The notes under the pieces are model-generated. The model did not search any database and had not been told where the DNA came from. It saw nothing but the letters and a program-made list of their open reading frames with translations. 64,000 bases of DNA from Cephalotus follicularis (taxonomy: Eukaryota; Streptophyta; Magnoliopsida; Oxalidales; Cephalotaceae), in NCBI GenBank assembly GCA_001972305.1, contig BDDD01001577.1, forward strand, positions 4,437 through 68,436, written 5' to 3'. The position numbers were made by a program, and so were the translations under genes. Positions 2,528 to 64,000 of the stretch are shown here, piece after piece. Each line of letters opens with the position of its first letter. The stretch's first letter is position 1.

Positions 2528-3209
2528 TGTTGACGTTAAGTCTCAATCATATGTTTTAATGATTACAAATTTGCATTTAACATGTTTACTTAATGTGCAA
2601 GGTATTAGAAAGCTTCACATAAGGCAAAATATCAACTGCAAGCAAAACACATCGACCTCTTTTGCAAAAGACATCGATGCCTTTGATCTAGCAAAGTTAC
2701 AGGCCACTTTTTGTGAAAGACATCAATCCCTTTCAACAAAGACATTGACTTCTTTAGATCCCAAAGTTACAGGTCAAATGTTAGTGAAGACATCGATCCT
2801 TACAAGCAAAGACATCGACGTCCGTACCAAATATATCGATCCCTTTCCTAAGACATCGACATCTTTCTAGACCAATCTGCCAAAGCCAGAAAAGACATCG
2901 ACCCATGAAGAAGAAGTCGATGTGATGCTCATATATTCAAACGCCTGGACATATTCCGATTTGCACCCGTAAGCCGAAAATCAAAGGTTGCTAGTGGATT
3001 CTAGTGGAAACTCAAGGGGTTCTTGAGAAAGTGGACGTAGGCACGGATTTTGCCGAACCACTATAAATCGTTTGCACACTCTCTATCCCTTATCTCTTTA
3101 CTTACAAGTACTATATTTGTTCTTCTGATTGTTTAGTTTCATAATCTTAATTTGTTAATTCCGCAAACAAATTAGTTGTTAAAGGTTACCATACATAGAG
3201 CTCCCAACA
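2528..3209 (+). repeat. 3' LTR (copia), 682 bp
   Basis: Starts TGTTGACG right after the polypurine tract and ends CCCAACA. The U3 part (2645-2915) carries about ten CATCGAC/CATCGATG words spaced 20-45 bases apart. TATA box at 3062-3068. Its start closely matches the minus-strand Sirevirus LTR ending at 18055, so the two elements are related. Confidence 0.88.
2645..2915 (+). repeat. CATCGAC/CATCGATG word array in copia U3
   Basis: Irregular array of words such as AAGACATCGATGCCTTT and AAGACATCGACATCTTT upstream of the TATA box. Spacing is uneven and copies are degenerate. The same words occur in gypsy LTRs elsewhere in the window. Confidence 0.75.
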
Positions 3210-3267
3210 ATTGGTATCGGAGAGGTTATCTCATAATTCTTAATTGTTAGAGATATAAAGATCCATG
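3210..3267 (+). other. Second copy of copia primer site and leader
   Basis: Bases 246-303 are repeated here directly after the 3' LTR, including the TTGGTATCGGAGAGG primer site and the bases up to ATG. The match stops at the start codon. Element interior on both sides of one LTR shows a former LTR-internal-LTR-internal tandem. Confidence 0.85.
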
Positions 3268-3440
3268 ACCTAAGAGTATCATATTCCACGTGTGTAAATT
3301 AATCCCTTGATTAATTTCCACAATTAAAACCGTTTCTGATACATCGATACTTTATCCTGACAACAGTTACCGTGTACTATAATCCCTCGTCATCCTCGGC
3401 TCCGATCGCGGTCTAGGGTAAGGATACGTGTTAACCCTAG
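3268..3440. other. Noncoding flank, unassigned
   Basis: No coding sequence seen. It is the left half of the sequence into which the element at 3441-13289 inserted; the right half resumes at 13290. The last five bases, CCTAG, are that element's target-site duplication. On the minus strand the joined piece reads like noncoding LTR-type sequence, but I could not assign a family. Confidence 0.5.
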
Positions 3441-5299
3441 TGTAACGCCCGGGATTTTCATTTACGTGTAATATTACTTTTCCAATGTAATTTTACACAT
3501 TGTGTTAATGAGAATCGTGTTTTCCCTCTTTCCCGTGTTGAAAGGTTGCAAGAAAGTGTGTTATGGTGTGTTTTTGTGCAGGGGCAGCCGACTGCCACAG
3601 GGAGGCAGCCGACTGGACCCTTGCTGAGGCGTGGCAGCCAGCTGCAAAGGGGAGGCAGCCGGCTGGTGGGAGTGTCGGCAGAAACAGCCGACTGCCAAGC
3701 AAGGCAGTCGACTGCCATGTGCCAGACAACCCACGTGTTGTCTGACTTAAGTGGAAAAAGGGGGGGAGTGTTTTTGATTTATTGTTTTGGCAGAGGAGGG
3801 GCCGGGGGTTTCTCCATAAAACATAACATTTCTCTCTTCTTCCTCCATCTTTCTTTGTGATTCAAGAGAGTTTGAGAGTGAAAGTGTGTGTGTGTGTGTT
3901 GAAGCTTTGAGGAGTTGTGTTGGAAGCGGAGGCTTGGAGGCTTGACAGTGGGAGTTTGGACCGTTTAAAGGTGGCTGGACGTGTTGGGGTTGCAAGAGCT
4001 TCGGATTTAGACACAAAGAGGTGGATTGCAACTCCTAACTTGGAGTTCTAAGGTAGGGGGAAGTCATTTTTGCAACGTAATTTCAATTGTAAATGTTTTT
4101 GATGAAATAAAATGCATGTTTATGTTGTATTGTGAGCTTGGAACGTGTATGTGCATAAATGTGTCATTTTGGGTTGTGTAGGGTGTGTGATTGTGGCTGT
4201 TTTAGCAGCTGGTTTTTACACCTGCTGCAGAATCCAGCCGACAGCCCACCTTGGGCAGTGGACTGCCTAGGGGTCCAGCCGACTGTTCTTGAGAGGCCAG
4301 TCGACTGCCCTCGTTCGTTCCCAGAAAATGTCTGCAGGGGTTGTGTAGTCGACTGTTGTAGGTCAATAGCCGACTGTGGGGGTGTGGACAGCCGACTGTC
4401 CTGAGGGCCAGCCGACTATCGAGGGTAGGCAGCCGACTGTCTGTGTAGACAGTCGACTGCCTGGTCATGTAGCCGACTGCCTGGGACTGGCAGCCGACTA
4501 CTTTGAGGGGGACAGCCGACTGCCAGTGGTGGGCAGCCGACTGTTGGGTGCCTGTTTTGCCCGTGAACATGTGTATGCATCGTGTATCATGGTGTTTTGC
4601 TTCGTGAAGCTTTATAAACTGCTTTGGATATTGTGGTTATTGAGTTTAAACTGTTATAACATATTTCTGGAAGTGCATTGTAGCTTAATGAAAATCATTA
4701 CTTTACACGAAATTATATGTTTTGAGAAATATATACTTTCGAACCGTGAAAATGACTTCCAAAAACACCGTGAACCGAGTTTTGTGATATCGAGAACCGT
4801 GAACCGTGACATCGTGAAAATGAGTTTGTTTTCAGGTATATGATTGTTTAGTTTCATAATCTTAATTTGTTAATTCCGCAAACAAATTAGTTGTTAAAGG
4901 TTACCATACATAGAGCTCCCAACAATTGGTATCGGAGAGGTTATCTCATAATTCTTAATTGTTAGAGATATAAAGATCCATGACCTAAGAGTATCATATT
5001 CCACGTGTGTAAATTAATCCCTTGATTAATTTCCACAATTAAAACCGTTTCTGATACATCGATACTTTATCCTGACAACAGTTACCGTGTACTATAATCC
5101 CTCGTCATCCTCGGCTCCGATCGCGGTCTAGGGTAAGGATACGTGTTAACCCTAGTGTAACGCCCGGGATTTTCATTTACGTGTAATATTACTTTTCCAA
5201 TGTAATTTTACACATTGTGTTAATGAGAATCGTGTTTTCCCTCTTTCCCGTGTTGAAAGGTTGCAAGAAAGTGTGTTATGGTGTGTTTTTGTGCAGGGG

Positions 5300-5433
5300 C
5301 AGCCGACTGCCACAGGGAGGCAGCCGACTGGACCCTTGCTGAGGCGTGGCAGCCAGCTGCAAAGGGGAGGCAGCCGGCTGGTGGGAGTGTCGGCAGAAAC
5401 AGCCGACTGCCAAGCAAGGCAGTCGACTGCCAT
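5300..5433 (+). repeat. AGCCGACTG cluster 1 (upstream of promoter)
   Basis: About six copies of AGCCGACTG or AGTCGACTG in 130 bases; duplicated at 3585-3718 by the tandem duplication. Each contains RCCGAC, the core bound by plant DREB/CBF factors, or the palindrome CAGTCGACTG. Confidence 0.8.
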
Positions 5434-5948
5434 GTGCCAGACAACCCACGTGTTGTCTGACTTAAGTGGAAAAAGGGGGGGAGTGTTTTTGATTTATTGT
5501 TTTGGCAGAGGAGGGGCCGGGGGTTTCTCCATAAAACATAACATTTCTCTCTTCTTCCTCCATCTTTCTTTGTGATTCAAGAGAGTTTGAGAGTGAAAGT
5601 GTGTGTGTGTGTGTTGAAGCTTTGAGGAGTTGTGTTGGAAGCGGAGGCTTGGAGGCTTGACAGTGGGAGTTTGGACCGTTTAAAGGTGGCTGGACGTGTT
5701 GGGGTTGCAAGAGCTTCGGATTTAGACACAAAGAGGTGGATTGCAACTCCTAACTTGGAGTTCTAAGGTAGGGGGAAGTCATTTTTGCAACGTAATTTCA
5801 ATTGTAAATGTTTTTGATGAAATAAAATGCATGTTTATGTTGTATTGTGAGCTTGGAACGTGTATGTGCATAAATGTGTCATTTTGGGTTGTGTAGGGTG
5901 TGTGATTGTGGCTGTTTTAGCAGCTGGTTTTTACACCTGCTGCAGAAT

Positions 5949-6260
5949 CCAGCCGACAGCCCACCTTGGGCAGTGGACTGCCTAGGGGTCCAGCCGACTG
6001 TTCTTGAGAGGCCAGTCGACTGCCCTCGTTCGTTCCCAGAAAATGTCTGCAGGGGTTGTGTAGTCGACTGTTGTAGGTCAATAGCCGACTGTGGGGGTGT
6101 GGACAGCCGACTGTCCTGAGGGCCAGCCGACTATCGAGGGTAGGCAGCCGACTGTCTGTGTAGACAGTCGACTGCCTGGTCATGTAGCCGACTGCCTGGG
6201 ACTGGCAGCCGACTACTTTGAGGGGGACAGCCGACTGCCAGTGGTGGGCAGCCGACTGTT
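5949..6260 (+). repeat. AGCCGACTG cluster 2 (downstream of promoter)
   Basis: About fourteen copies of AGCCGACTG/AGTCGACTG spaced 20-30 bases apart, several inside the longer palindrome GGCAGTCGACTGCC. Duplicated at 4234-4545. It lies in the likely transcribed part of the LTR. Confidence 0.8.
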
Positions 6261-7475
6261 GGGTGCCTGTTTTGCCCGTGAACATGTGTATGCATCGTGT
6301 ATCATGGTGTTTTGCTTCGTGAAGCTTTATAAACTGCTTTGGATATTGTGGTTATTGAGTTTAAACTGTTATAACATATTTCTGGAAGTGCATTGTAGCT
6401 TAATGAAAATCATTACTTTACACGAAATTATATGTTTTGAGAAATATATACTTTCGAACCGTGAAAATGACTTCCAAAAACACCGTGAACCGAGTTTTGT
6501 GATATCGAGAACCGTGAACCGTGACATCGTGAAAATGAGTTTGTTTTCAGGTATTTTGTTTTATAACTACTTGGAAAACTGTTTTGAGCATCGAGATGAT
6601 TGTGATTCTGATTGAGCTTGACTGTCATTGCTGTTTGTGATTTTGATTGTGGCCGTACTGGTTGCGTGGCGGAGATGCCAGCGATGACTAGTGGTCTGGT
6701 CGACTCAGGGGCCAGGAGTTGGCTGGGTGACTTACTGTATTGTGACCTGCTTCGTGCCGCCCGGAGTTGGGGCCGATGTCGGGATGTACGTCATCGGGGC
6801 CAGGAGTTGGCGATGCTCTTCCTACCTACCGTGTACCGTGAACCGTGAACCGAGTATTGTGTAGTCCTTTGGACTTATTTGAGACCGTGCATTGTGATAT
6901 TGTGACATTGTGACACCGTGGTTTTGGTGATATCGTGACATCGTGTTTTGGCATATGCACATCTATATTTATTATATGCATCGAGATATAGTATGTACCG
7001 TATCATGCTGCTTTCATACTGTGGTTTTATTGATATTGTGTTGTTTTTATGACTTTGGCCGAGTGAGGACAAAGGCTAACCCCCTACTGTTGCAGATTGA
7101 TGCTGCGTTTTGGGATGTCGCCGAGCATGGTTGTGCTGGACTGTGATGTGACGGAGTTTTATGCTTTAAGTATTTTGTAAAGCAGTGTAACGAACATATT
7201 GTACTATGGTTATGTACTAATGTTTTGCTATTGTTGTTGTATCAACTTTGGATCATGCTCTGCTTGTGGGCTGTTTAACATGTTTTTGATAAGGATGTTG
7301 TGGGAATCATGCGGTATGGGACGCATGGTTCCGTTTGTTTTCAGCTTATATTATAAATGCTTCCGCAGTATGATGTCTGTTTAAAAGTTTTAAATTTTAT
7401 CGTTCTCTGTATAAGCTGGATATCTGTTAAATTGCCATGTTGTATGTTGTTAATGCAAGCGGGGTGTGACAGCAG

Positions 7476-14214: not shown

Positions 14215-16393
14215 ATTCGGGTTAACGCTGAGAAAGAATAGTGAACGCTTCAACGCACATCCCAGCAGTTGACGCCTAAACAAGATAGCACATTGAGCTA
14301 AGTCCCAAACAGAAGGCGCATGAGGGATAGGTGTAAGCCATTGCATGGATGCCCTATCATGCCAGAGGTAGCGTGTTAGACATGGCACCAGTTCCACATG
14401 CCTGCAGCTGCCGAAAGTGAGAAAGAGATGGGACTGGTGTGTCATGCGGCTGGTGAGAGAAGAGAGAAAGAGAGGTGCGTTTTCCCCATAAAGCATACTT
14501 TCTTCTTCTTCTTCAAAACGCCTGAGAAAGAGAACAAAAATTCTAAAGAAAAGAGAAAGAAGAAACAAAAAGAAAACGGAAAAAGGAAGGAGAAATAGAG
14601 AACCACATTCTCCATACTCGAACCCAGAGATAGCGACTTGGAAGCTCAGACCGAGGTGGAGTCGAGCTTGGATTTGGAGTTACTGTGCCGAGGTAGGGAT
14701 TACATAACTTTTTTTTTGAGTTCAATCATAATGAGTTTCATTCGGTGAAATGCATAAAAATGATGGATTTTGATAGTGAAATTGTTGTGGTTTGATAACC
14801 TGTTATGGATGTTTGATTTGGAATGGAAATGGATTGAGTTGCATGTGTGGTTTTGATGATTTCCACTGGTATTGTTGCGTTGTGATGAAGAAGGCGAGTT
14901 GTGGTCTTAAACACATCGGCGCTTAGAGGAAAAGCATCGACGCCTTGGCTTGTTATGCGAGGAAGAAGATTCCTAATTATTCGACGCCAAGGGGTAGCGT
15001 CGATGCCAAGTAGAAAAATGTCTAAGGATTCGTCGTAAACGTCGACGTCTAGAGGTTACGTGTTGACACCTAAGGTTCCTACCTTAATGCGTCAACGCCA
15101 AAGAAGGAAATATTGACGCTTAAAGTGTCTGTCTTAGAGGCATCAGCACCAAAGGGCATGCATGTTGACGTCTAGGTTATGTGTTGATGCCTAAAGGAAC
15201 TGTCGTAAACGTTAATGCCAAAGGCATGTGTTGGTGCCAAAGAGAATGGACATACACGTCGACGCATTGAGGGTACACATTGACGCCAAAAGGGTCTGTT
15301 TGCATTTTGAGCTTATGATTGCTTGCATGTAATTATAGATTGAATTGTGATTGAATGTTGATTGATTTCTAAAGTGTTTTATCATTTTAGAAAAGTGCTT
15401 ACAAGATTTTATTATAAATCATTATCTTACATGGAAATGTTATTTTCCAAAGGATTGAAATACTATTTGCAATGGATTGAAAACTGTTCAAAGACTGTTT
15501 ATACAATTTGATAAATGTATTACTCAAGTATTTTATAACTTATAAACTACTTGGAAATGGATTGATGTTTTATATTGATTGTTGGATTGTGATTGATGCC
15601 GTGTTAGCCACCTTACGAAGTTTGTCATCGATGGCTAAAGGCGGGACGTACTCTAGGTTCCAGGAGATGGCTAGGGACGCCCACACTGGTTACTTAGCCA
15701 TAGTGCAAGTAACACTGGATTGATTGACTGAACTTGCTTCGAGTAGTCCAGAGATGGGACTGAAGTCAGAGTACGACATCGAGGCCAAGAGATGGCGACG
15801 TGCTTTGTGCGGATGGATTGGATTGATTGGTCCTCTGTGACATGAATGATGGATTGTGTTGATGGGACCACTTGGCATGGTTGCTCATATATTGACAGAT
15901 ATACATATACATATATATGTATTTGTATATATATTGTATTGCATCACAATGCATTCATTACCTGACATTTATTATCATCGACCCCAAAATGCTTTTATAT
16001 CTTTCCTACTTAGCCAGTGGATTCGGCTAACCTTATCAATTTCAGGTTGATGCAGCAGGATCGATTTCACTTATGCTTGGGGGATCGAAGAGAAGAGAGA
16101 GTTGTATTTTCTTTTGAGAAATGTTTAAATGGATTATTGAGATGATGGATTAATGTATTCACTGATTTAAATCATGGTCCGTTTTATGGGCAATTAACGA
16201 TGGTTATTGTATTGTTGTTAAAACATGAGTAACATGTTGTATGGGATGCATGTTATGTTGTTCTAAATTCAGATTATATTAATGTTTCTGCAATGATTTT
16301 ATATGAATTGAAAGTTTGAAATTTCCATAATTTCGAATAAGCGGATACATGTTGATTGCCATGACCTCTGGGTGAATATATGTGGAAACGGGG
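14215..16393 (+). mobile_element. Gypsy LTR, split by Sirevirus insertion
   Basis: Shows the order seen in the other gypsy LTRs here: CT-rich leader (~14495-14520), GAGGTAGGGATT (~14690), an array of GTCGACGCC/GTTGACGCC words (14915-15295), the GCCGTGTTAGCC-like block (~15597), GGCTAACC (~16025), and the end GGGG at 16393. The missing end TGTGACA is at 24938-24944, beyond the Sirevirus array. The five bases at the split (CGGGG left, TGGGG right) fit a target-site duplication with one change. The LTR start is unclear, so solo versus truncated is unresolved. Confidence 0.7.
14915..15295 (+). repeat. GTCGACGCC/GTTGACGCC word array
   Basis: A dozen or more degenerate words such as GCGTCGATGCC, CGTCGACGTC, GTTGACGCC and CATCGACGCC, spaced roughly 20-30 bases, in the part of the LTR downstream of the leader. 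Confidence 0.75.
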
Positions 16394-16725: not shown

Positions 16726-18055
16726 TGAAATAAAACACTCTTGCAATATACAAGAGGGGGGGGGGTGAATTTAATATTGAAGCAAATACAAACAAATAAA
16801 AATTTAAAGTAAAGAGTATAGGGATAGAAAGATTCTCTGTTTTTAGAGTGGTTTGGCTAACTCTTGCCTACGTCCACTTTTCCCAAGGGAGCTCCTTGAG
16901 TTTCCACTAGTTCGAATTGATTAAGGAAGCAATTCGTTACACCTCACAATTTTGTGATTGACCTAAATCACTAGACCTTGACCTCAAGACCTTTAGAGGA
17001 TTAACTCTCCTCTTTTACAAGTGTTTGGATAGTGTTTACAATATAACCTCTCAGTAGGTTTGATTTTGCTTACAATGAAGAACACAATAAAGAATTACAG
17101 AAAGAACTCAGAAAGTAAAGTTATGAAGCTTTTGGAGAAACTAATAGCACTTTGGATTTTGTAGAATGTAGCTTGCTTGATTGCTTGAGTTCTTTGTTTC
17201 TTGGTGAATTCTGAAGGCTTGGTTCCTCCTTTATATATCCAAATAATCTTGGTATCCGTTGCTTAAATCATGGAGATTGAGATTTGAAAATCTGATGACT
17301 TGCTGTAAAATCTGTTATGTAGCCGTTAGAGCAAAGCCGTCGATGTCTTTGATAAGCATCGATGTCTTCATCAGTTAACTAGCCGTTGTGAGCATCCAGG
17401 GCGTAATGTTTGTGGAAAGACGTCAATGTCTATTACTGGCGTCGATGTCTTTTCTGGAGTTGTCGCCGGACTTTGAAGATATGAGCAACACATCGATGTG
17501 TATAAAGGGCGTCGATGTCCTTTCTAGAAACATAAAAGTTATGAGAAACACATCGATGTTTTTGTAAAGGGATCGATGTCTTTCTGTTGAACATCGATAT
17601 CTTCATAGAATTGGATCGATGCTTTTCTTCAAAACCGACCTGTAACTTTTGGGCATAAACACATCGATGTCTTTGCAAACACATCGATGTCTTTGAGTTG
17701 AAAAATCGATGTCTTCTCAGAGATAGATCGATGCCTTTGAATGAAGACTGCCTGTAACTTTTTGTGCCAAAAACGTCGATGTCTTCTCAGAAAGGGATCG
17801 ATGTGTTTGGTGAGAAATGACCTGTAACTTTTGGAGCTAAAGGCGTCGATGTCTTTTGAGAATGAGGTCGATGTCTTTCATGAATAACCACCTGTAACTC
17901 TTGGTACTTTAAAGGCGTCGATGTCTTCCTTCAATAGCGTCAATGCCTTTCATGTAAAATTGTCTTCAGATTTCCAAGTATCTTGCACATAAAATAAACT
18001 TGTTAAAAGCAAATATGTTATCATCAAAACTAGGATTGAGACTAAAACGTCAACA
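16726..18055 (-). repeat. Sirevirus LTR, full, 1,330 bp
   Basis: Reverse complement starts TGTTGACGTTTTAGTC and ends next to the primer site. A dense CATCGATGTC array spans 17335-17945. It shares start, promoter-proximal blocks and array words with the copia LTR at 2528-3209. Confidence 0.9.
17335..17945 (-). repeat. CATCGATGTC array in Sirevirus LTR
   Basis: About 25 words of the forms CATCGATGTC, GTCGATGTC and ATCGATGCC, spaced 15-45 bases, often in pairs with CCTGTAACTTTTGG between. The same block recurs at 24235-24835 in the other LTR copy. Confidence 0.85.
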
Positions 18056-23670: not shown

Positions 23671-23709
23671 ATGCTTCTATAATAGCGAACCTACCATAAA
23701 CCTAAAGTA

Positions 23710-24932
23710 GGAGTATAGGGATCGAAAGATTCTCTGTTTTTAGAGTGGTTCGGCTAACTCTTGCCTACGTCCACTTTTCCCAAGGGAGATCCTTGAGTTT
23801 CCACTAGCTCGAATTGATTAAGGAAGTAATTCGTTACACCTAACAATTTTGTGATTGACCCCAATCACTAGACCTTGACCTCAAGACCTTTAGACGATTC
23901 ACTCTCCTCTTTTACAAGTGTTTGGATAGTGTTTTCAATATAACCTCTCAGTAGGTTTGATTTGGCTTACAATGAAGAACACAATAAAGAATTACAGAAA
24001 GAACTCAAAAGGTAAAGTTATGAAGGTTTTGGAGAAACTAATAGCACTTTGGATTTTGTAGAATGTAGCTTGCTTGATTACTTGAATTCTTTGTTTCTTG
24101 GTGAATTCTAAAGGCTTGGTTCCTCCTTTATATTGCCAAATAATCTTTGTATCCGTTGCTTAAATCATGGAGATTGAGATTTGAAAATCTGATGACTTGT
24201 TGTAAACTCTGTTATGTAGCCGCTAGAGCAAAGCCGTCGATGTCTTTGATAAGCATCAATGTCTTCATCAGTTAACTAGTCATTGCGAGCATCCAGGGCA
24301 TAATTTTTGTGGAAAGACGTCGATGTCTATAAATGGTGTCGATGTCTTCTCTGGAGTTGTTTCCAGACTTTGAAGATATGAGTAACACATCGATGTCTAT
24401 AAAGGGCGTCAATTTCCTTTCTGGAAACATAAAAGTTATGAGAAACACATCGATGTCTTTGTAAAGGGATCGATGTCTTTTGGTTGAACGTCGATATCTT
24501 CATAGAATTGGATCGATGCTTTTCTTCAAAACCGATCTGTAACTTTTGGGCATAAACACATCGATGTCTTTGAGTTGCAAAGTCGATGTCTTCTCAGAGA
24601 TAGATCGATGCCTTTGAATGAAAACTGCCTGGAACTTTTTGTGCTAAAAATGCCGATGTCTTCTTAGAAAGGGATTCATGTCTTTTGTGAGAAACGACCT
24701 GTAACTTTTGGAGATAAAGGTGTCGATGTCTTTTGAGAATGAGGTCGATGTCTTTTATGAATAACCACCTGTAACTCTTGGTACTTTAAAGGCGTTGATG
24801 TCTTCCTTCAATAGCGTTGATGTCGTTTATGTAAAACTATCTTGAGATTTTCAAGTATCTTGCACATAAAATAAACTTGTTAAAAGCAAATATGTTATCA
24901 TTAAAACTATGATTGAGACTAAAACGTCAACA
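23710..24932 (-). repeat. Sirevirus LTR, partial (right copy)
   Basis: Matches 16804-18055 closely, ending CGTCAACA at 24932 (LTR start on the minus strand). Array words at 24235-24835. The promoter-distal end of the LTR is absent. Confidence 0.88.
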
Positions 24933-25567: not shown

Positions 25568-28250
25568 TGTAACGCCCCCGATCCGAGTTCGCTTTTGCTC
25601 AAAGCGAGCCTCGAGGATTCGGTGCGTTACTTGGGTGGATGTGAACCTTTAAATCCTTTAACAATCTCGATGTTGAACCATTATCCATTAAATAATTTAA
25701 TCATTTAATGATCTATGTTATATCGTGTTCAAATCCTCATAACTTCCAAATGTACATACAACTTTGAAGACTAAACCTTAGAATCATCATACTTTTAATT
25801 GAAACTATTATATATGAAAAATCTTGCTTATTACTAACATCTCTATTTAATTTCTCATAATCTCACATATGTCATACAACTTTCAACATTAAATTCCAAA
25901 ACATCGTACTCTTATTAGAAAAACATCATATACCATAACGATCATGTCTAAAATCTTTACATCTATACATGACTTGACATAAAACATTACACAACGGAAA
26001 GAAAATCTTATTACATCAAAAGCAGTTTATACCAAACATCATTACATAACATAATTCCTTTCCCAAAACTTCTTTTACGAACTTCCTCCTAAGCTCGAAA
26101 TTCCACGTTCAACCATTTCCTGGAAAATTTTATTTGAAAACAAAACACTGAAATGAATGAGCTCTAATAGCCCAGTAAGAATCACAATCGTAAAAATGTT
26201 ATCGAAATCCATTTTTGATAATTTTTATCAAAACATTTCCAATTCATACATTTTTCTGATATATAGCCCAGCCATACTTGAAAACAAAACATTGTTGAAA
26301 ATCATTTTCTGGTATCATTTTATAAAAACCAGCACATTTCACATTCATCTATTTTCTGATCATATCTCATGAATCAGAACGTTACATAAATAACTGAGGG
26401 GTTTTATAAACTTAAAGAACTCAACTGAACCATGCTTCATCGGGGCCTTGTGCACTCCCTGATTACTATCCTTACATCACATGCATGTCCGCGAGCAATC
26501 TCCACTCCATTATCCCTCTTTGGGTCGCAACCCAAGAGTTGTTCATCTCAGTTCATTACCTTTTCTCATTTCGTAAAATCATTTCTCAATACTTTGAGTG
26601 ATCAACTCAAAGTATTCAGAAAACAGCATTGCATAATATTTTTAAAACTGATTTTTCGTATATAAGCATTCATTTTCAGAGAAAACTTAAAACATCAAAG
26701 TTAAAGTAGACATTTCAAAGATTCCAGAATGGTAAAATTCATAATTTTTTATTGAGAAACGAATATGCAGTAAATTTTTAAAGTTGTAGATTCCATGTGA
26801 AAACAAAACATGAGCAGTAATCTTAAAAATAATTTTTTATCAAGAAGTTTACAGAATTTCGAAACATACAAAACATAAAGGTTTTATAGGACATCTTAAA
26901 GTTTCCAAAACATTCAACCATTAGAATTTTCATCATGAAGAGAAAAAAATAAAACAAGCTGCTGAAAAATATCAGAAGAAAACAGATCATTTGATACTTC
27001 AAAAAAATGAGTAGGAATCCTTACCTTGCTCTAATCTCCTTCTCTCCTTCTCTTACCCGAATTATCCTAGCAAAACTCAGCAAAAAACAACCCTTTGCAG
27101 GCCATAACTACAGACATATATATAGAAAGGGAGAAACTTGGGGTCCAAGCTTGCCTAATGAGTCACCATGCCACCTTGCCCTAAGTGATGTCATCTCCCA
27201 TGTGAGTCATCTCCAAGTTGCCAATGTGATTAATTCTCTCCCTCCAAATGATGATACATGTCCCTTTCCATCATTCCAACATCAAAATATCTTAAGTCTT
27301 CAGTCCCTAGCTTGAAATGTGTCCTTACTTGGGAAAAGATCTTAAATGAATTGACTAATCTGCACTAAAAACTAGACGTTATGCATGTCTGTTGGTTTGG
27401 GCATCGACGCTTACGCATGGTGTTGACGTATATATCCTTGTGCGTTAACGTCAATGGTTCTTCATGTTAACTCAATATGCCACGATCCTATTATTGCTTT
27501 ATTTACATTGACGCGTATGCATAGCATTGACGCAAATGTCACTTGTGAGAGTTAACATCTTCTTTATGCGTTAACGTCCAATGCTACTTGAGATATGAGC
27601 ATCCTTTTGAGTTGACATCTAATGATAGAGTTGACGTCTTCCTCGTAGGTGTTGACGCTAAAAAGTCTTCACGTTAATGTCCAGAGCTACTGTCTGAAAT
27701 TACACATCTTGGCATTGACGTCTTTCCCTATGGCGTTGACGCAGTAATGCAATCCCCAGAACGTCGACGAGAATAAGGAACACGTTGACGATAATCATCT
27801 TGCAAAGCCTAAAACATGTGCTCAAGCCCAGCATGTTGACGTATATAATATGGGCGTTGACGCCAAAGAGATTGTTCTGCATATTTTGCCTGTTTTGACC
27901 TTACCATTTTACTCGTATGTTTTCTTTAAGCATTCCTTCACATCAACAAACAAGTTAGGTGCTTTCAAAACAAAGATTATAGGGAAAAATCCAAAAGTAT
28001 TTGCTTTGTCAATTTAGGAATTGTGTTGGCGCACTGGTCGACGCTTTAAGGCATCCATCGACACTTAAGGCAACCGTTGAGGCTTTAAACTATACTGCCG
28101 ACGCTTTCTTCATCACACACGATACCAAACGCACAAAATATGATGCAAAACAATCATGCAATGCAAAACAACATACTCCATGACATACAAGACTTAGAGC
28201 AAGCACACTTCCATACACAATAACTTCACCAAAAAATCCCAGTAATTACA
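25568..28250 (-). mobile_element. Solo gypsy LTR, 2,683 bp
   Basis: TSD CTTGC on both sides (25563-25567 and 28251-28255). Minus-strand reading starts TGTAATTACTGGG and ends GGGGGCGTTACA. It shows the lineage order: GTTGACGC/GTCGACGC words (28110-27370), TATA-like TATATATG (~27115), GCAAGGTAAGGATTCC (~27030). No interior is present, hence a solo LTR. It sits in relic A. Confidence 0.88.
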
Positions 28251-30933: not shown

Positions 30934-30953
30934 TCCATCCCCCCTTAAAAAGG
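30934..30953 (-). other. Polypurine tract
   Basis: Reverse complement reads CCTTTTTAAGGGGGGATGGA, directly before the LTR start TGTAATATCCC. Confidence 0.85.
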
Positions 30954-52004: not shown

Positions 52005-54723
52005 TGTAACGCCCGGTATTTTCCTGAATGTAATATTTCGATTTAGGATGTAATATTAAACTTGATTGAATGAGAATGTTGAGTTTTTGAACTCAAAGGG
52101 TGCTTGCAAACCCTATTTATGGACTTGGGAATGGAATGAGTATGTTAAAGCCTGAAACAGCGTTGTTTTGGGATAAAGACATCGACGTCTTTGGAAAAGA
52201 CGTCGACACCTTTGTGAATTAGGGCATACGTGATTGCACGGGTGTGCACGTCGACCTTGATGGAAGGCATCGACACCTTCATACAGAAGGAGAAAAGACA
52301 TCGACGTCTTCGACGCCTTTCTAATGAATGGCTATCACGTTCTTCGTCGGCAGAGTAACATGCAAGGGGGATTTTTTATAGGGCTTTATCAGACGCCTTT
52401 TCGAGTGCATTATAACGTGTTAATCACAATGGTGTGTTGCCTAACATGTTCCGAAACCTGCCTCACATGGAACATGCAAGGGATTACCACCCTCACATGC
52501 ATCTGCATAAGCAAGAAAGAAGAAGACAAAAGAGAAATACAGAAAACTTGGAAGTAGGAGAGAGCACGAGGGGGCCTGTTATATGGCAGAAGAAGGAGGT
52601 TAGGTAGGATCCATCTGCATAAAAACAACCCTCCCCACTTATCTCTCTCGTTTTATAACACCAGAAGAAAGAGAGGGAATAAAACAGTGTGTGTGTGTGT
52701 GCCATTGTTGAGCTTGGAATAAGCTGGAAGATTGGAGCTCGTGGGTGGCAGTTGCTGAGGGACCTTGGAGCTGCTGGAAGCCAGAACTTGGAAACCCAAA
52801 GAGGTGGACTTTCTGGTTCCTAACTTGGGACAATAAGGTAGGGGAAAGTGATGGGATTTATATATGCATTTTGGAGTTCTAAGTTAATGAATAGCATGTT
52901 GAATTGCATGTTAATGATTGAATTGAGATTCTGGACTTGTTGTAGTGTTACTGTGATACACTGAGTTTATCATGCATGTAAGTTTACATGAATACGTGAA
53001 TCTGTTGTGTAAAGGATGGATTTGTTAATGACTTGGTGTGTTAAAATGGTGGTACTGACGTTCTGGGTTGTGAAGACATCGACGCCTATGTAAAGACGTC
53101 GATGCCTTCGTGTGAAAATGTGTGAAAGACATCGATGTCTTTTGATTGACATCGACGCCTTTTCTGGGAAATTCGTTGAACTGTGACGTTTATTTCAAAT
53201 GGCCATTTTAGCCACTTAGGAATCACCTGTTTGATTTCAATTTGATGTTCTGGATATGTTGCTATTAACCAGTAGCATCCTTTACACGTTTTGTGAGTGA
53301 TACTCGATTACACGAGGGATTAATAAGTCGGATTTCACCCTCCCAAACCAAGACTCGCGTTTTGATACTCCCTGGTATGATAAAGACGTCGACTCCTTTC
53401 GGATGGACATCGACGAATTTTCCCCTGATCAGTAGAATTTCGCTCAAATGGGACCCGTTAGACCAGAAATGACCCTAGAAACAATCTTAGATGTATCCTG
53501 AGCATATGATTGCATTATTACTGCGATATGCATTATGGTGGATTTCCAAAAAGTGATAACCATTTTGAAAAGCTTGCATGATTGAATAATCATTTTCTAC
53601 GGAAATGTATAATTATCATTACATGAATTTATATATTTCGAAATGACTGGGGAAGTATTTCCAATGACTGAGAAATGTTTTAAAGGGTTGATTATGAAAC
53701 CAAAGTATTTTGCGGAAATGTATAATCGTATATGTTTTCAAAATGATTGGGGAAGTATTTCCAAAGATAGAGAAATGTATTGTTTTAAGTTTTACAACTT
53801 ATTACAACTTGTGAACAGAATAATATATTTTTAACAAATATATTTGATCAAGTAATTATATGTAATTGCTTGACTTGTACTGTGAAATGTTTGTGCTTGT
53901 TGATTGTTGGCCATCGTGCTAATAACCTGTTGATTATTAGCCACCGTGCTAATAACTTGTTGATTACTTAGCCGCCATGCTAGTAACTTGCTGTTGGTTT
54001 GGCCGCGGTGCTAAACAACTTATTGGGGACTTGCACCAAAACCGTTTGGGATGGAGTAAGAGTGCATGACGTTGGGGACAGGAGGTGGCGACGGTCATGA
54101 CGACTGGTTTGTCTGGTTCCTTTTGGGAACATATTTACTTCCTGTGTTGATATAACTTATGAGTTATACTTGTATTGTGAGCATGCATATATTTTTATAT
54201 GTACATACAGAGGTATATTTACTTGGAAAAATTTCATGTCATGGATCATCATTATGCATTCATGCATGCTACTCTTTATCTTACGACTCGAACTGTATTT
54301 TATGGGTTTATTCACTTAGCCGAGTGAGGACAAAGGCTAACCCCTACTGTAACAGATTGATGGAGTGGTCTTGTCATGGAGCATGCACGGAGATTTGAGG
54401 AGAAGACTTGTTATTTCTCTTATTTATGTTTTGGATTATTGAACATTGATCATGGTTACTCGGATTTTGTAACATTGGATATTTGTTATCTTGTATTGTA
54501 TCATTTTCACGCTCCGTTTTGGGTGATCAACAGTTATGTTTGGATTATCGGGCATAACGTAGTATGGGATGTGTGATGTGTTTTAATTTTCGTCTCATTT
54601 ATGTTGTTGCTTCCGCTATCGAAGGTTTTAAATTATTGGTATTTTTGCAGGAGCTGGATTATTTTATGTTGATTGCCTTACCACTTATATGCTGTCTCTT
54701 AAGTTGGAAAATGGGGTGTGACA
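52005..54723 (+). mobile_element. Solo gypsy LTR, 2,719 bp
   Basis: TSD CATTG on both sides (52000-52004 and 54724-54728). Starts TGTAACGCCCGG and ends GGGGTGTGACA. CATCGACG/GTCGATG words at 52180-52320, 53073-53160 and 53382-53415; a run of GCCACCGTGCTAATAAC repeats at ~53910-54010; GCCGAGTGAGGACAAAGGC near 54320. It splits the leader of the surrounding element. Confidence 0.92.
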
Positions 54724-55290: not shown

Positions 55291-56439
55291 GGATGTAACG
55301 TCCGGAAATTCAATTTCATGTATTATGGTAATCCTCGATGTAGTTTTACCTTGAATTAATAAAAGGTGAATTTCCTGGTTGATATCTTGAATTTGAATTA
55401 ACTTAGAGCATTTGCAAGTGTGATTCTAAGCATAATTATGGGAATTTTGGCTTGGATAGCCGACTGGTGCGATATACCAGCCGACTGTTGAGCTGAGGTG
55501 TGGGGCAGTCGACTGGCGTGAGGAACCAGCCAACTGGCCAACTATCGTGACACTTGGCAACAGACTTCCAGGTGAACAGCCGACTGCCAGGGAAGGGCAG
55601 CCGACTGGTTCATGCTCTGTTTTTGTGACAAATGGCGAAATCACATGCAAACTGACATGGGAAGAGCATCTTCAGAAGCCATCACATGCAATAAAACGTG
55701 TTGAGCATGCACCACCATGCCAGGACCTGCAAGGACAGAGGGGGAGAGAAAGAGTGACAAGTGTGTGTGCATGCAAGTGATAATGTGAGAGAAGGGCTCT
55801 TAGTGCCATGCAAAATGGATTGAGGGAGAGAGGACTGCATAAATGCTCTCTTCCATTCATCTCTCTCACCCTGCAACCTAATAAGAAAGAACCAGAGAAA
55901 TTGAGAGAGAATATAGTGAGAAATTGAGAGAGAAGATAGTGAGAAATTGAGAGGATTCTCCATTGTTAAGCATTGAGCTCGGATTGGAGCTATTGGACTG
56001 TTCTTGGAGCTACTGGGAGGCTCAAAGATACTGGAAAGGAGACACAAAGGGGTGGACTTTCGATTTCTAACTTGAAATCAAAGGTAGGGGAAATGGTAGA
56101 GAATTCTATGCATGCATTTTGAGTTTAAGAGTAATGATGTTATAAATGAATGATGTAGTTGTTTGGCTGCGGATTCAAATATTAATGTTGTGGTTACTAT
56201 TAATAAATAACCTGACATGCTCACTGAGTTTTGGATGGAGTTTTGGATTGGTTTTCATGCATTACCATGTTTGGATTTCATTTGAACTACGATCAAAACG
56301 GAGAATAATGCATGAATTGAGTTGTGTTTTAGACCAGGATATGACTATTGGTGTTATTATGGGGTCTCAATGCGTGTGGATAAGTTTCAATTGCTTGTTG
56401 AATGGATTAAGAAGTGAATTACTGGTGCTGTCCAGCCCA

Positions 56440-56665
56440 GAACAGGCGACTGTTTAAGTAAAACAGTCGACTACTCGATCATCCAGCCGACTGTCATGTA
56501 AGAACAGTCGACTGTGCATGCGTTTTTGCCCAGAACAGTCGACTGTTGAAGGAAGACAGCCGACTACTGATTGCTCATGATGAACAAGTCGACAATTGGG
56601 GAAGAACAGTCAACTGACTCAAGGATCCAGCCGGCTGTTATGGAAAAAAAGTCGACTGTTATAAC
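56440..56665 (+). repeat. CAGTCGACTG/CAGCCGACTG cluster
   Basis: Nine or ten words including AACAGTCGACTGTT-type palindromes. A companion cluster of six lies at 55455-55610 upstream of the leader. Confidence 0.8.
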
Positions 56666-57049
56666 AGAAATTGAACCTTTAGAGAAGGTGATAGGCCTAG
56701 GTTAAATACCCATAACCCTAGGTGCATTCTGAGCATATGTTTGCCCTGCATTTGAACTGCTATTGTACTGTAAATTGATTGTGGTTGATTACTTAATGTA
56801 TTAACCATCTTGGAAAACTTGCATGATTATTATAATCATTTTGGGTAAGAAAATGTATATTTGACAAATATAAACTTATATTTTCAAATGACTGGGGATG
56901 TATTCCCAAGACAGAGAAATGTATTGTTTTAAGTATTACAACTTATAACAACCTGTTAATGGAGTAATATATTTTAAACAAATATATTTTGATCAAGTAA
57001 TCATATTTTGTTGCTTGACCTGTATTGTACTGTGTTCGTAACCTATTGA

Positions 57050-59289
57050 TTACTCACAGTATATACATGTATAAGGTATATGCATGTTCACAGTACAGGT
57101 ATAACCTCATAAGGCTATATCAACACAAGCAGCAAGTATGTCCCCAAAAAGGAACCAGACAAACAAGTCGTCATGACCGTCGCCACCCCCTGGCCCCAAC
57201 GTCATGCACTCTTACTCCAATCCCTGTTTGCGAACGGTTTGAAGCAAGTCCTCCGTACAGGTTGCTTAGCACAACGGCTAAACAATCAACATGTTATTAG
57301 CACAACGGCCAACAATCAACAAGCACAAACACCGTACAGTACAAGTCAAGCAAATAAATATAATTACTTGATCAAATATAAAAAATATAAAACTCCGTTT
57401 TCAGGTTGTAATAAGTTATAAAACTTAAAACAATACATTTGATTGTGTAACCAATCATGTAAACCATTTCTCCGTCTTTGGAAAATACTTTCTCAGTCAT
57501 TTCGAAAATATATATATTCATATGTTGACAAATATACATTTTCGTACAATAAAGATTATAATAATCATACGAGTTTTTCAAAATGGTTAACACTTTTAGA
57601 AATCAACCATAATGCAATTCACAATACAGTAATAATGCAAACATATGCTCAGAATGCATCTAGGATCGTTTCTAGAGTCGTTTCGGGTCTAACGGGTGCC
57701 ATTCGAGTGAAACTCTTCCAAACAGAGGGATAAGCGTCGATGTTTATCCCAAAGGCGTCGACGTATTTTGCCGTAAGGCGCCAACATTTTGTGCAGTTAT
57801 TCCCAGGCGTTTTTGGACCAAAGACATCGATGCTTTTCCAAAGACGTCGATGTCTTTATGATACCAGGAGGTATCAGTTCGCGAATCTTGATTCTAAAGG
57901 TTAGAATCCGACCCTTTAATCCTTCGTATAAACGAATCTCACTCTCTCATAGTGTAAGGCATGCTACTGGTTAACAGGGGATGTAACCAGAACATCATTT
58001 CATGGATAAAACATGCAATCACCAAGGGCAGTTCACCAACAACAATAAGCACTACTGTTCTGCAATACCCAGAAAAGGCGTCGATGTCTTCCCAAAGACA
58101 TCGATGTCTTTCACATTCACACACGAAGGCATAACATGACTATTCCACAATGCCCAAAAAAGGCATCGATGTCTTTCACATTCACACACGAAGGCATCGA
58201 CGTCTTTATGTAGATGTCCACGTCTATCCAACCTAGAATGTTTTCCCCACAGTTTTAACACACCAAGCCATTATCAAATCCGTCCTTTACACAAACCAGT
58301 TCACATATTCATGTAATCACACATGCATGGTTACTCCGTATATCACAGTAGTCATCACAAAAGTCCAGAGATTACAATTCACCCATTAACATGCGATTCA
58401 TCAATGGCATTCATTACCTTAAAACTCAAAATGCATGTATAAGAATTATCACTTTCCCCTACCTTATTGTTCCAAGTTAGGAACTGGAAATTCCACCTCT
58501 TTGAGTTCCAAGGTTCTGGCCACAGCAGCTCCAAGTTCCGCTCAGCAGCTGCAATCCACGAGCTCCAAGTCTCTAGCTCCAAACAAGCTCAACAATGGTG
58601 GCTCCCTCTTTCTCCACTCACTGGTTTTCTCCTCTTCCTTTCCTTTGGTGTTTTTAAATGAGAGAGAGAGGTGGGGAGGGGGTTGTTCTTATGCAGATGG
58701 CTCCCTCTCCCTCTTTCTCCCTGCATTCAATGAGCACTCTCGTGATCTCCCCCTTTTTCCCAGTGAGTTTCTGCCCTTTTGTTTTCTTCTTATGTTTTTA
58801 TTTGCAGGTTGCACGCATGGTAACACTTGTTCCCTTCTTCATCCTTCTTCAGTCATGCAGGTCAGGAGGCCATTATGCATGATCAACACGTCTCCTTCCC
58901 GTGCCTCAAAAGTTGCCCCCATTGCATGTTACGCTGTCAGTTCATAACGTGACTGATATTCTTTCCAAAGACGTTGACGTATTCTATAGACGTCGATGCC
59001 TTTTCCCTTTTCATACGTGGGGGTCGATGTCTTTGCCTACATCGATGTGCATGTACATGCATTCACGTACGCCTTTGCTCCCATAGGCGTCGACGTCTTT
59101 CCAAAGACATCGACGCGTTTGTCCCAAAACTGTACCGTTTTGGCTTAACATACACATTCCTTTCTCCCAAGGTAATATTTAGGGTTTGGAAAACATTATT
59201 GAGGCGAAAACTCCAACTTTTTATTAATTCAAGCATACGATTACATCATGGAATGAAATATTAGAAAACAAAAAATACCAGGCGTTACA
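57050..59289 (-). mobile_element. Inverted partial gypsy LTR
   Basis: Reverse complement starts TGTAACGCCTGG at 59289 and follows the solo LTR at 52005-54723 for about 2.2 kb, then stops short of the LTR end. CATCGATG/GTCGACG words at 57728-57860, 58077-58230 and 58965-59120, including AAAGACATCGATGTCTTT near 58096. No TSD found. Confidence 0.8.
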
Positions 59290-59869: not shown

Positions 59870-60031
59870 ATATTCCATATATGCTTAGCTAGGATACTTT
59901 CCTTGGCAATCAATAAATTGTTTTCCTAAAGTCGCGACTAACCATCATCCTTCTCATGGGAACAAATAGACCGAAGGAGAACGCGCGCTAGGGCTAGAGC
60001 TGTTGGAGCCAATGCCCCCGAGGAAGCGAAT

Positions 60032-60745: not shown

Positions 60746-60999
60746 GCAGAGAGGGCCCGAGCACAACAAAATAAACAGAGCCCGACGAGACCAGATTCTT
60801 TGAAATGGCAAGGCAGTGGTTCTCTGACGAAATCATCGAAGAACAGACATGGACAGACTACCACACAGGGTACTCCTAGCCAAGGGAGTAATGCCAGAAC
60901 TGGAGCTTGCTATCACTGTGGTCGTAAAGGCCACTTACAGAAAGATTGCTGGAGGATGAACGGATTGTGTTTGAGGTAGGGGGCATCTGGCCATTCCGT

Positions 61000-61298
61000 G
61001 AGAGATTGCTCGAAGATTCAGGCTACAACACCTATTGGACCAGCTAGTAGCAATGGTGCCGCAGCAGGGCCTTCACAGCGAAGGGGCACCGACAAGGGCA
61101 TTGCGAAAGGTAAAGTTTTTACCCTTTCACAGACAGAGGTTCCGGAGTCTACCTCGGTCATTGGAGGTACACTGTATATTTACGGTTTTTCTGCTAGAGT
61201 GTTGATGGACCCTGGAGCATCACATTCTTTTATTTCTTCACAATTTGCATCATACTTAGATGTAACACCAGACTGTATGCCATACACCTTGGATGTGA
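61000..61298 (+). pseudogene. Gypsy protease region, start only
   Basis: GKVFTLSQTEVPESTSVIGGT leads into the active-site block (GASHSFISSQF) near 61205-61250 and SYLDVTPDCMPYTLDV, as in the element at 3441-13289. The family match stops at the LTR that starts at 61299. Confidence 0.85.
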
Positions 61299-64000
61299 TG
61301 TAATACCCTGCTTGTTCGTATGTGTTTTATGGATTTTTATGTGTTTGTTTTCGGACTTTTAATTTTGTTAATTTTAAAAGTCTGGTTGCCTTATGTTTTG
61401 GGCCTATGTGCTTTGGGACTGACTGATACCAGTCTGAATTTTGGATGTGTTAATACAATGCTGGGTTTGGGTTTTTAATGAATTTAATCAAAATTTATTT
61501 TATTAAAACAATTCCTTTTTGTTTTTTTAAATCCTATTATTTCATTTTACTTATTTTTTTTCCTTTTTTTTTCCTTTTTTTTTCCTTTCTTTTTCTTTTC
61601 TTTCTTTCTCTTTCTTTCTTTCCTTTTCCTCTCCTCTCCTCCCTCGAAGCTCTATCTTTCCCTCATCAACCCCACGCATTTTCAATCTTCCCTTTCCATA
61701 TTAAACTGATTTTTGTCTCCCTTTATTCCTAATTCATCTCTCAAATCACTCCTTTCTTTCCTGTTTTAAGAGTGCTAGTGTGTTTGGATATGCCATTTGT
61801 TTCCTCACCTCTCACTGCCGAACTCTGCATTGTGAAGCCCGTGTTGAACTGTTGTGGAGTTATTTCGTCAGTCTATTGAGGTAATCTTAATACTCCATGT
61901 TATTTTGGTTGCTTTTCCTCTGGTTGGCTTAAGGTTGATTGTGTATTCGTTATTTCCTTCTCTTTGTTTTCCTGCAAACAGCCAAGTAATTCTTGAACTG
62001 TGGTGTTCTTCTATTGTTCTCTATGTTTCCAATACCTTTACAGGTTAGTGAACCCTGCTGTGACGATTTATTTCACTTTGTTACTTTGTATTAATGCTAA
62101 ATAGGGTGTTAGAAGATATTTGGTTTCCTGTCAATTCCGGCCATGTTAGCATTGTTGTTCTAAATGAACTGGTCAATCTTTAGACACCTCACATAGATTG
62201 TAATCTGGTTTATATACGTATTAAGTGATAATTGATATGGAATTTGGACCAGAAAATATGCATATGCTTAGAGAATTATTTCTTTCTCTTGAAGTTAAGC
62301 CACTGTCTAATTGTTTCCATGTCAATTATGTGTTTCTGTATCACCTAAATGTCATATAATGTCATATGTTTATGTCCTCGTGTCTCTGGTTTAACGTGGT
62401 AATCATTTGAACCAGTTTCTACAATAAAATTGTCAAGTTTTTGTTGTTCTGTCGTCTAGAACAGTCGGCTGTTCTTGTGGACAGTCGGCTGGATTGGATG
62501 AGTAGTCGACTGCCATATGAACACAGTCGACTGTCTTGGGTTGTGTAGTCGACTGGATATAAGTGACAGTCGACTGTCTGCTTTCTAGTTTGAGTAGTCG
62601 ACTGGCCCTTGTGATTAGTCGACTGCCAAGCTTCCCCAGTCGGCTGGTGCTCTGTAACAGACGACTGTTTTGCCCAGAAAAGTACCGTTTTCAACTGTTT
62701 TGATTCATTTATTCCTCGAATCGATCCAAGTCTTTTCTAAACACTGTAATAAGTATGTTTAATGTCTCTGATGTTTCTTAGACCCTTATATGAATGATTT
62801 TGGGTGTCTTTTAGATTGTTGTGCTTCAAGGGGGAGTTTGTTTTAAATCATTTATCCGTAAGTGCATTGTGAACGTATAAGGTACGGATGTTTCGTTCCT
62901 TGATACCCTCAAATCGGTTTTACTGTAGTAAATAAAAGATAGCTTTACTTTATGAATAATGTACGGATTTCTATCATTCCTTGGCTATCTGATTTTCGAA
63001 CTGAAAACGGTTTTGCTTTATGTTATGCTTCTTCGTTTATGAACTTGAAAATGTTTTATGGTTTTGACATGTTTCAGAAATGAAGTTGGTTTTTGACATT
63101 TATAAATGATTCCGACTTTATTCATATGATACGATATGTTACGATATGTTATGATCACCTCTTTATAGCGAAGTATAAATGAGTTGATGATTTGGTTATG
63201 AAATGTATGATATGATATTGTTGTGAACGGTTTTCCAATATGTTTTGTGAAAGCATATTTTATGTGGTTTTAAATTGATTTCGATAAATCAATGTTTTTG
63301 AAATGATGAAATACTGAGTATTCTACCCACCTATGGGGTGTACCATAGGCATGTCGTAGGCCTGGCACGGGGACATGACACTTTCGTAGCGGTATATTAG
63401 TCTAGGGCGTCTCTGAGTGTTATGAATAAATCCCATGAGGTGGATTTATGGATCCACTATGTGATAGAGGCGTATGAATCGATTCTAGTATATGATATGT
63501 GATCTGATGTGTGATCGGATATGTGATATGTGAGAATTGACATGTGTAGTGCCGTACACTTCAATTCTAGTGGGCATGTGGAATTAGCGCCTCCCTTGCC
63601 AATATATGATGTGAAATGTGATATGTATGTGGCTCAGTATGACTTATGAATCGTGAAATGACATTTTTGAAATGTTTCGTAAATGTTTCGAAAGATATGA
63701 AATTGGTATTTTAAGGATATTCAAATATGGTTTAAATTGTTTAAGATTTCTGTTACGGATTATATTGAAATCTTACTGCTTTTAAACTTATCGTTTACTA
63801 TTTTATTTCCCTTATCCGTACTGAGGTTTGCTCAGCCGCGTTTTTGTTTTCCATGCGGCAGGTTATCGGGAGCAGCGGGGAAATGTGTGAACGAGAGATG
63901 ACTACCCTATGTCTTTGGATCGCTAGGAGTGTGATCCTTGTGTTTTTATGTCTGGTGGTCATAAACAATGATACTTATGTTTTTATGTTTTTAAATTGGA
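61299..64000 (+). mobile_element. Gypsy LTR running off the window
   Basis: Starts TGTAATACCCTGC inside the protease region. A pyrimidine-rich tract lies at 61530-61640, a leader with TTGAGGTAATC near 61875, an AGTCGACTG/AGTCGGCTG cluster at 62455-62665, and GGCACGGGGACATGACAC near 63365, which matches the inverse block in the LTRs at 28353 and 35729. It is therefore of the minus-strand Tekay-type family. No LTR end or primer site before 64000, so solo or full is unknown. Confidence 0.8.
62455..62665 (+). repeat. AGTCGACTG/AGTCGGCTG cluster
   Basis: Ten or so words spaced 17-30 bases. The close relative at 28353-30933 carries GTCGACG words in the comparable place, so the word type has changed within one LTR family. 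Confidence 0.8.

Follow-up and report, generated by a model that had tools for sequence, protein, structure and literature searches.

Why do the long terminal repeats (LTRs) of copia and gypsy retrotransposons, two unrelated superfamilies, carry dense arrays of the same short palindromic words? The question is raised by a stretch of 64,000 nucleotides (the window) from contig BDDD01001577.1 of the carnivorous pitcher plant Cephalotus follicularis, whose 1.577-Gb genome was used for the genome-wide counts. An earlier note, made from the letters of this stretch, had described such arrays in at least ten LTRs and in three dialects, designated here D1 (CAGTCGACTG), D2 (GACATCGATGTC) and D3 (GGCGTCGACGCC). 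Each dialect occurs in both superfamilies, neighbouring words are most often 19-22 bp apart, and different dialects are found on homologous LTR backbones. It may well be, although we hold this reading tentatively, that the arrays are evenly spaced homotypic clusters of binding sites for host DNA-binding proteins, and that whole array zones have been replaced between dialects.

The arrays of all three dialects are real and lie where the earlier note had placed them. Relative to 100 dinucleotide shuffles of the window, D1 (at most one mismatch) was found 48 times against a shuffled mean of 1.17, D2 (at most two mismatches) 44 times against 1.67, and D3 (at most two mismatches) 26 times against 0.30, the D2 and D3 match lists being partly overlapping. 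Thirteen of the 48 D1 words belong to an exact duplicate (4841-6554), without which 35 remain; this duplicate is included in the shuffle-compared D1 count, the reversed-control counts and the exact-word counts, excluded from the spacing counts of the window, and masked with N for D1 spacers and polarity and for the joint spacing of window and blind sample. The blind sample comprised 20 stretches of 10 kb from contigs picked by number. Several later analyses used 10-mers with up to two mismatches, a level at which D1, D2 and D3 number 69, 91 and 53 in the window (reversed controls 30, 24 and 12) and 119, 130 and 107 in the sample (51, 58 and 32). As reversed controls are so common, single matches at that level mean little, and it is the clusters that constitute evidence. 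With at most one mismatch the counts are 48, 24 and 15 in the window (reversed controls 2, 1 and 1) and 72, 24 and 33 in the sample (3, 3 and 3); 104 of these 129 sample words fall in clusters, and 13 of the 20 stretches contain a cluster of at least three. A motif-free search of the sample, filtered for low complexity, returned 15 8-mers with three or four clusters, 11 of them pieces of the dialects and four AT-rich. Across the whole genome, the two strands hold 122,699 and 123,039 D1 pairs with a spacing of 13-43 bp (reversed control 375 and 351; symmetric pairs scored on both strands), and the D2 18-mer AAAGACATCGATGTCTTT has 9,899 copies, compared with eight for its reversed control. Viral contigs gave seven stretches for the D1 pair and 13 for the D2 word, each with one matched place, and arrays in viruses were set aside.

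The three word forms are all above the shuffled level; within the window, however, D3 is degenerate, because exact GGCGTCGACGCC does not occur there and GCGTCGACGC occurs only twice. The proposal that every word is centred on TCGA does not hold for the D3 copia elements at two further loci (L021 and L023; L numbers designate such loci throughout), which repeat AAAGCGTCAGCGCTTT, a word with palindromic arms and TCAG at its centre; the word plan therefore permits centres other than TCGA. The D2 18-mer, or most of it, had also been claimed for both superfamilies. Inside the window its exact form is confined to two gypsy LTR stretches (at 53125 and 58094), the copia LTRs holding most of it, whereas outside the window it is exact in the copia-type loci L002 and L003 and the gypsy-type locus L004, all three retrieved through the 18-mer itself. 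L001 is another locus with this 18-mer.

The copia carriers are Sirevirus-type elements and the gypsy carriers are chromovirus-like. Sirevirus A shows several GGGGGAG polypurine tracts (PPTs; one just ahead of the LTR, the other PPT-like copies upstream of it), an LTR starting with TGTTGAC, a Met-type primer-binding site (PBS) and a copia gag (PF14223) at 295-1968 on the same strand as the LTR. Among the matches listed for this gag, the best two have 88 and 87 percent identity, the latter (P0002) coming from Cephalotus follicularis. Related ends were identified in Sirevirus B, L002, L003 and L023 (PPT and LTR start) and in L021 (PPT-like copies seen in the sequence), while L009 is assigned by its shared 3' domain only; its positions of about 1000-2065 form a Sirevirus-type LTR that resembles a solo LTR lying within a gypsy repeat. 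Among the gypsy elements, GypC has Ty3-type gag, reverse transcriptase (RT), integrase zinc-binding and SH3_Tf2-1 domains (Pfam), together with an integrase C-terminal stretch that we take to be chromodomain-like, and GypD has an RNase H on the minus strand between both LTRs. In the gypsy carriers of D1 and D2 with a located start, the LTR begins with TGTAACG. That the words are common to both superfamilies is borne out for each dialect: D1 is carried by gypsy GypC, GypE, L018 and L019 and copia L009; D2 by copia Sirevirus A, Sirevirus B, L002 and L003 and gypsy win52, GypF and L004; and D3 by gypsy GypD and copia L021 and L023. Nine array-bearing LTR stretches of the window could be assigned, and the clusters near 14.9, 22.7-22.9, 27.4-27.9 and 62.5 kb lie outside these.

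The position of the words within the LTR differs between the superfamilies. In Sireviruses they span approximately 115-715 bp of the LTR, and seven of nine LTR stretches have eight or more words with at most two mismatches (L009 17, Sirevirus B 19 and 11, L002 15, L003 11, L023 10, L021 8); the second L021 LTR has seven and Sirevirus A six, and L010, which was found by its Sirevirus 3' domain without the use of words, has only four weak ones. Gypsy LTRs have two arrays, one some 140-400 bp into the LTR and the other at some 800-1,590 bp, and in D1 and D2 carriers a conserved TAACTTG...AAGGTAGGGG, perhaps the splice donor of the leader, lies between both arrays. With a strict leader pattern, all seven distinct matches are flanked by words on both sides, six of them being independent of the words and the seventh (L004) having been retrieved via the 18-mer, in agreement with the earlier description of gypsy arrays on either side of the leader. 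In L015, where the leader matches more loosely, words were found downstream but not upstream; further matches to the looser pattern were set aside by eye and the strict pattern was preferred.

The distance between neighbouring words is regular. For the first 100 D1 pairs listed (13-43 bp allowed; all within roughly the initial 500 kb of contig C1, counting related copies too), 79 are at 19-22 bp, seven at 27-29 bp and 14 at 40-43 bp, the last corresponding to two steps, with none elsewhere. In the window and sample together, 19-22 bp is the largest bin in each dialect (86, 32 and 36 pairs for D1, D2 and D3), compared with no pairs at 15-18 bp and 0, 2 and 2 pairs at 23-26 bp; both D1 and D3 peak at 21 bp (61 and 16 pairs). 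A coding function was ruled out, as spacings of 20 and 22 bp shift the frame. The 11-bp spacers of D1 pairs at 21 bp are unrelated, distinct spacers being identical at 3.44 of 11 positions versus 3.59 expected. Constant spacing with unrelated spacers would not be expected of a simple tandem repeat; it resembles what proteins bound to the DNA at intervals of about two helical turns would impose, so that such proteins may set the spacing. It is highly improbable that the arrays are ordinary minisatellite expansions without function: the regular period and the partly duplicated array stretches of the Sirevirus B LTRs would fit that origin, whereas the unrelated D1 spacers, and the recurrence of the same words and period in LTRs without detectable homology, would not.

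The words also have a direction. Among 16 D1 clusters, 14 have their asymmetric words in a single orientation (10 hold at least two such words and four just one), one is 1:1 and one has no asymmetric words; the D1 sense word is CAGYCGACTG in five LTRs of independently known strand (GypC, GypE, L018, L019, L009), and D2 tends to the sense word GACATCGACGYC. The arrays of D1 and D2 are thus polar, with RYCGAC preferred on the sense strand, and each has the same polarity in copia and gypsy. The per-position word table was built from 15 of 18 oriented LTRs, the Sirevirus B 5' LTR, L003 and the second L021 LTR being omitted as close copies and one stray GypE match being removed. In this table the excess of A.C over G.T is position-specific (45 versus 0 in D1, 39 versus 5 and 30 versus 4 at two positions in D2) and the outer arms are mixed. 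Over the oriented LTRs, D3 is weakly polar (26 versus 17). A neutral strand bias was rejected as the source of this polarity, since differences within LTR pairs (30 A/G versus 19 C/T in Sirevirus B, 63 versus 63 in GypD) show no clear bias. Position-specific asymmetry of this kind suggests an asymmetric DNA recognition site rather than base pairing.

Pairing is central to another explanation, in which the words act as RNA and rows of transcript hairpins, each formed by a word and the next word, would give rise to small RNAs and silencing. A precedent exists in maize, where clustered palindromes of Sirevirus LTRs have been linked to small RNAs and strong predicted RNA structure in the account consulted (PMC10760457), and the antisense strand of all 11 D1 and D2 arrays folded (hand-picked from the oriented arrays) has a z of -4.0 to -11.3, compared with -1.2 to -5.4 for the sense strand; in the GypC antisense fold adjacent words pair. 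Nevertheless, the stronger fold is on the antisense and not the sense strand, hairpins need no register of about 21 bp, and the A.C excess, which weakens sense hairpins, is limited to one or two positions with mixed outer arms, so that pairing as such does not appear to be kept. Selection for RNA pairing was therefore discarded as the cause of the polarity and lowered to a rival reading, which also gives no reason why elements would retain the arrays; we consider it unlikely.

The core of the words is YCGA(C/T). In D2 words, TCGA is followed by C in 58-70 percent of cases and by T in 27-42 percent. A W-box had been read into GTTGAC, and this reading is weakened because CpG decay of GTCGAC yields GTTGAC as well as GTCAAC, and D3 words show both directions. 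The suggested DREB/CBF core RCCGAC remains a possible lead if widened to RYCGAC, presumably a DREB/CBF-type core, which matches most D1 and many D2 and D3 words on the sense strand; ATCGAT words, including the D2 18-mer, do not match it. To our knowledge, conserved dyad arms and a spacing of 19-22 bp are not part of the DRE/CRT site of DREB/CBF proteins.

Within each superfamily, dialects differ on otherwise related LTRs. Between Sirevirus A (D2) and L021 (D3), similarity amounts to 85 percent at the LTR start and to 88 percent in the 3' domain, whereas their array zones compare at z = 0.0 relative to shuffles. Across Sirevirus array zones, four same-dialect pairs have z values of 30.3 to 41.7 and 11 cross-dialect pairs -0.7 to 4.0, the highest of the latter being L002/L021 (4.0) and L023/L009 (3.7); the LTR start of L009 is only weakly alike to those of other Sireviruses. 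Similarly, gypsy D1 LTRs (GypE, L018, GypC, L019) partly align with D2 LTRs (win52, GypF, L004, L015), at 68-76 percent for the LTR start where found, 60-74 percent for the leader and 68-84 percent downstream, and their array positions are alike but their words different. The D3 element GypD has little homology to D1 and D2 LTRs, with one 64-bp stretch shared with win52 and, relative to GypC, z values of 7.1 for the LTR start and 2.9 for the part between the arrays. These comparisons support exchange or replacement of array zones within each superfamily, as judged from the sequences.

The situation between superfamilies is different. For array zones hand-picked from the oriented arrays, none of 29 copia-gypsy pairs of the same dialect beat all 60 spacer shuffles (best z = 2.8, exceeded by one of 60), and neither the homology nor the spacer comparisons found gypsy homology in copia arrays. 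The possibility raised beforehand that the copia arrays are inserted gypsy pieces was thereby checked and does not apply, and a recent gypsy-to-copia transfer was rejected for want of spacer similarity. Of the causes that had been offered for the sharing, recent exchange between superfamilies is unsupported because the spacers are unrelated, while exchange or replacement inside each superfamily is the part that stands. An older exchange, through template switching of co-packaged RNAs or insertion, could have left the shared words as relics that have no function in common today. The identical D1 and D2 polarity in copia and gypsy is what copying predicts. Such an origin is nonetheless quite unlikely: no spacer sharing between superfamilies is detectable, neutral relics would not hold words and spacing while spacers turned over, and an old exchange would be needed separately for all three dialects.

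Constraint on the words was further assessed by comparing related elements. Word mismatches are below spacer mismatches in all 20 directed comparisons of 10 element pairs, for instance 0.07 versus 0.24 for GypC/L019, 0.12 versus 0.24 for Sirevirus B/L002 and 0.12 versus 0.14 for GypE/L018. When the two LTRs of a single insertion are compared, words do not consistently have the fewer mismatches; within the Sirevirus B LTR pair the values are 0.08 versus 0.08 and 0.04 versus 0.07. The evidence for constraint on the words between elements is moderate only.

Several observations weigh against binding-site clusters as the explanation of the arrays. Choosing words by their match in one partner could by itself lower the mismatches by as much as half, and only six of the 20 comparisons are below half; the GypD LTR pair has more mismatches in words than in spacers (0.15 versus 0.06 and 0.11 versus 0.08), and gaps are not consistently rarer in words. 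With regard to spacing, D2 pairs at 19 (10), 20 (9) and 22 bp (9) are commoner than at 21 bp (3), a weaker fit to exact helical phasing, and the D1 pairs at 27-29 bp do not correspond to an integral number of helical turns. The reversed D1 control (at most two mismatches) has nine of its 20 close pairs at 19-22 bp, perhaps from overlap with decayed D1 words. The spacer test within arrays covers D1 arrays, and the duplicated stretches of the Sirevirus B arrays are 67-68 percent identical. Finally, a simple symmetric dimer site leaves the same-way arrays along the transcript unexplained, and the better antisense folding is unneeded if the words are protein-binding sites.

With these reservations, a mechanism based on protein binding can be outlined. 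The clusters in the promoter half of the LTR would bind one or more host proteins, probably as dimers, and sites about two helical turns (near 21 bp) apart would allow the bound proteins to stack on one face of the DNA. In Sireviruses the clusters lie ahead of the start and in gypsy elements they flank the leader; in both cases they may act as enhancers or chromatin-opening platforms for element transcription. The three dialects could be bound by several related factors, or by a single factor whose arm preferences differ, and a lineage would keep one dialect yet be able to replace its whole array zone as a cassette, in both superfamilies. A broader idea is possible but doubtful, namely that the two superfamilies have converged on a changeable promoter code of few words in even arrays, recognized by a few related DNA-binding proteins of the host, with cassette switching; a switch of words would then follow the host factor or provide escape from silencing or competition.

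Alternatively, the arrays may dock a sequence-specific silencing or anti-silencing protein rather than an activator, similar to VANC on VANDAL transposons. In the portions consulted of the study by Hosaka et al. 2017 (PMC5735166), VANC targets are described as dense, same-orientation, short non-coding motifs whose sets differ between relatives, a pattern matched by the polarity of D1 and D2 and by the different dialects on one backbone. According to the same portions, the VANC system involves DNA transposons, an element-encoded factor, non-palindromic motifs and arrays that are often in tandem repeats, and in all these respects it differs from the arrays described here. As VANC is encoded by its own DNA transposon family, whereas no such gene was seen in the ten pieces scanned with Pfam (no other search was made), and as the occurrence in two superfamilies speaks for a protein of the host, docking of this type appears rather unlikely.

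Palindrome arrays in Sirevirus LTRs were described in 2010 (Bousios et al., PMC2829016), where the sections consulted report palindromic words repeated eight times or more, most of them ahead of the TATA box in the upper LTR half. The published motifs include the TCGA-centred CGGTCGACCG of Vitis and ACAATCGATTGT of Tnd-1, and those sections regard the repeated motif as Sirevirus-specific and absent from classic retrotransposons (PMC2829016). The copia carriers agree with the Sirevirus definition (PPT copies and, in Sirevirus A, a Met-type PBS and copia gag), whereas the gypsy carriers do not, GypC being Ty3-type. In contrast to that account, gypsy LTRs here share the words, the 19-22 bp spacing and the polarity, and dialects differ on one backbone; fixed spacing is not mentioned in the sections consulted (PMC2829016). 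The CGG-CCG core signature of Sireviruses is absent from the words studied here, as it is from the published Tnd-1 motif in the sections consulted (PMC2829016). Maize Ty3 elements are generally without an obvious structure peak, as far as the account consulted goes (PMC10760457), while here gypsy LTRs bear arrays. Among the literature matches listed (open-licence papers, by title and start of abstract), none concerned arrays common to copia and gypsy LTRs and none these words in Cephalotus. Relative to those matches, what is new is that gypsy elements carry these words as well, that a step of 19-22 bp is common to the arrays, that the arrays are polar, and that homologous backbones bear different dialects. 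If the binding-site explanation is correct, one genome would provide many replicates (two superfamilies with their LTRs, three sets of words, and backbones that are homologous but differ in their set), the question of which host factor activates or silences much of a plant genome would become directly testable with three short words, and spacing and polarity would yield sharp predictions for binding assays.

Coordinates of the array-bearing features in the window are collected below.

Table. Array-bearing LTR stretches and word clusters in the 64,000-nucleotide window
Feature	Coordinates	Strand	Basis
Sirevirus A LTR, D2 words (centres 2654-2919)	2528..3208	+	PPT GGGGGAG abutting LTR start, Met-type PBS past end
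GypC 5' LTR part, D1 arrays 3585-3714 and about 4235-4543 flanking leader	3441..4839	+	LTR start TGTAACGCCC; gag and RT on same strand
GypC LTR part, exact second copy with arrays 5300-6258, then LTR 3' part	5156..7471	+	1714 bp, 100 percent identity
Degenerate D3 words, no LTR pair assigned	14915..15295	.	Word matches
Sirevirus B 3' LTR, 19 D2 words (at most two mismatches)	16805..18055	-	PPT and LTR start on minus strand
Sirevirus B 5' LTR, 11 D2 words (at most two mismatches)	23703..24932	-	LTR pair 92 percent identical
Degenerate D3 words, many of them GTTGAC	27370..28110	.	Word matches
GypD LTR, D3 words about 142-240 and 1028-1241 from LTR start	28353..30939	-	LTR pair 88 percent identical
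GypD second LTR, D3	35729..38296	-	LTR pair and words
Gypsy LTR win52, D2 arrays either side of leader donor 52821	52005..54723	+	Homology, leader, words
GypE LTR 5' part, D1 arrays 55457-55607 and 56443-56658	55294..57059	+	LTR start, leader donor, words
GypF LTR part, inverted, D2 arrays	57059..59289	-	Homology, LTR start/leader, words
D1 array	62462..62667	- (strand from word polarity only)	Homologous to L017 and L024

Several of these loci have an unusual structure. The D1 array at 3585-4543 is additional to those previously named, and that at 5300-6258 is its exact second copy; the underlying tandem duplication (3126-4839 and 4841-6554) covers the end of a Sirevirus LTR together with the beginning of that of GypC, and the repeated GypC part is possibly an assembly duplication. 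In the 3' LTR of GypC (12222-13289) the array-bearing stretch is missing, the equivalent of 3597 joining 6561 with one word left (12366), which may reflect either loss of sequence by deletion between copies of the LTR or collapse of the assembly. The flank of the degenerate D3 words at 15301-15600 is 73 percent identical to L019 just beyond the second array of the latter. Near Sirevirus B, the 3' part of a Sirevirus LTR is repeated (16397-16569 and 16728-16898) beside 116 N (16574-16689), and a cluster of seven weak words (at most two mismatches), mostly D2, lies between the two LTRs at 22718-22900. The 2.2-kb inverted GypF part is located between the GypE part and an LTR end in direct orientation that has a primer site and gag (59289-60742), and the locus around it is rearranged or misjoined.

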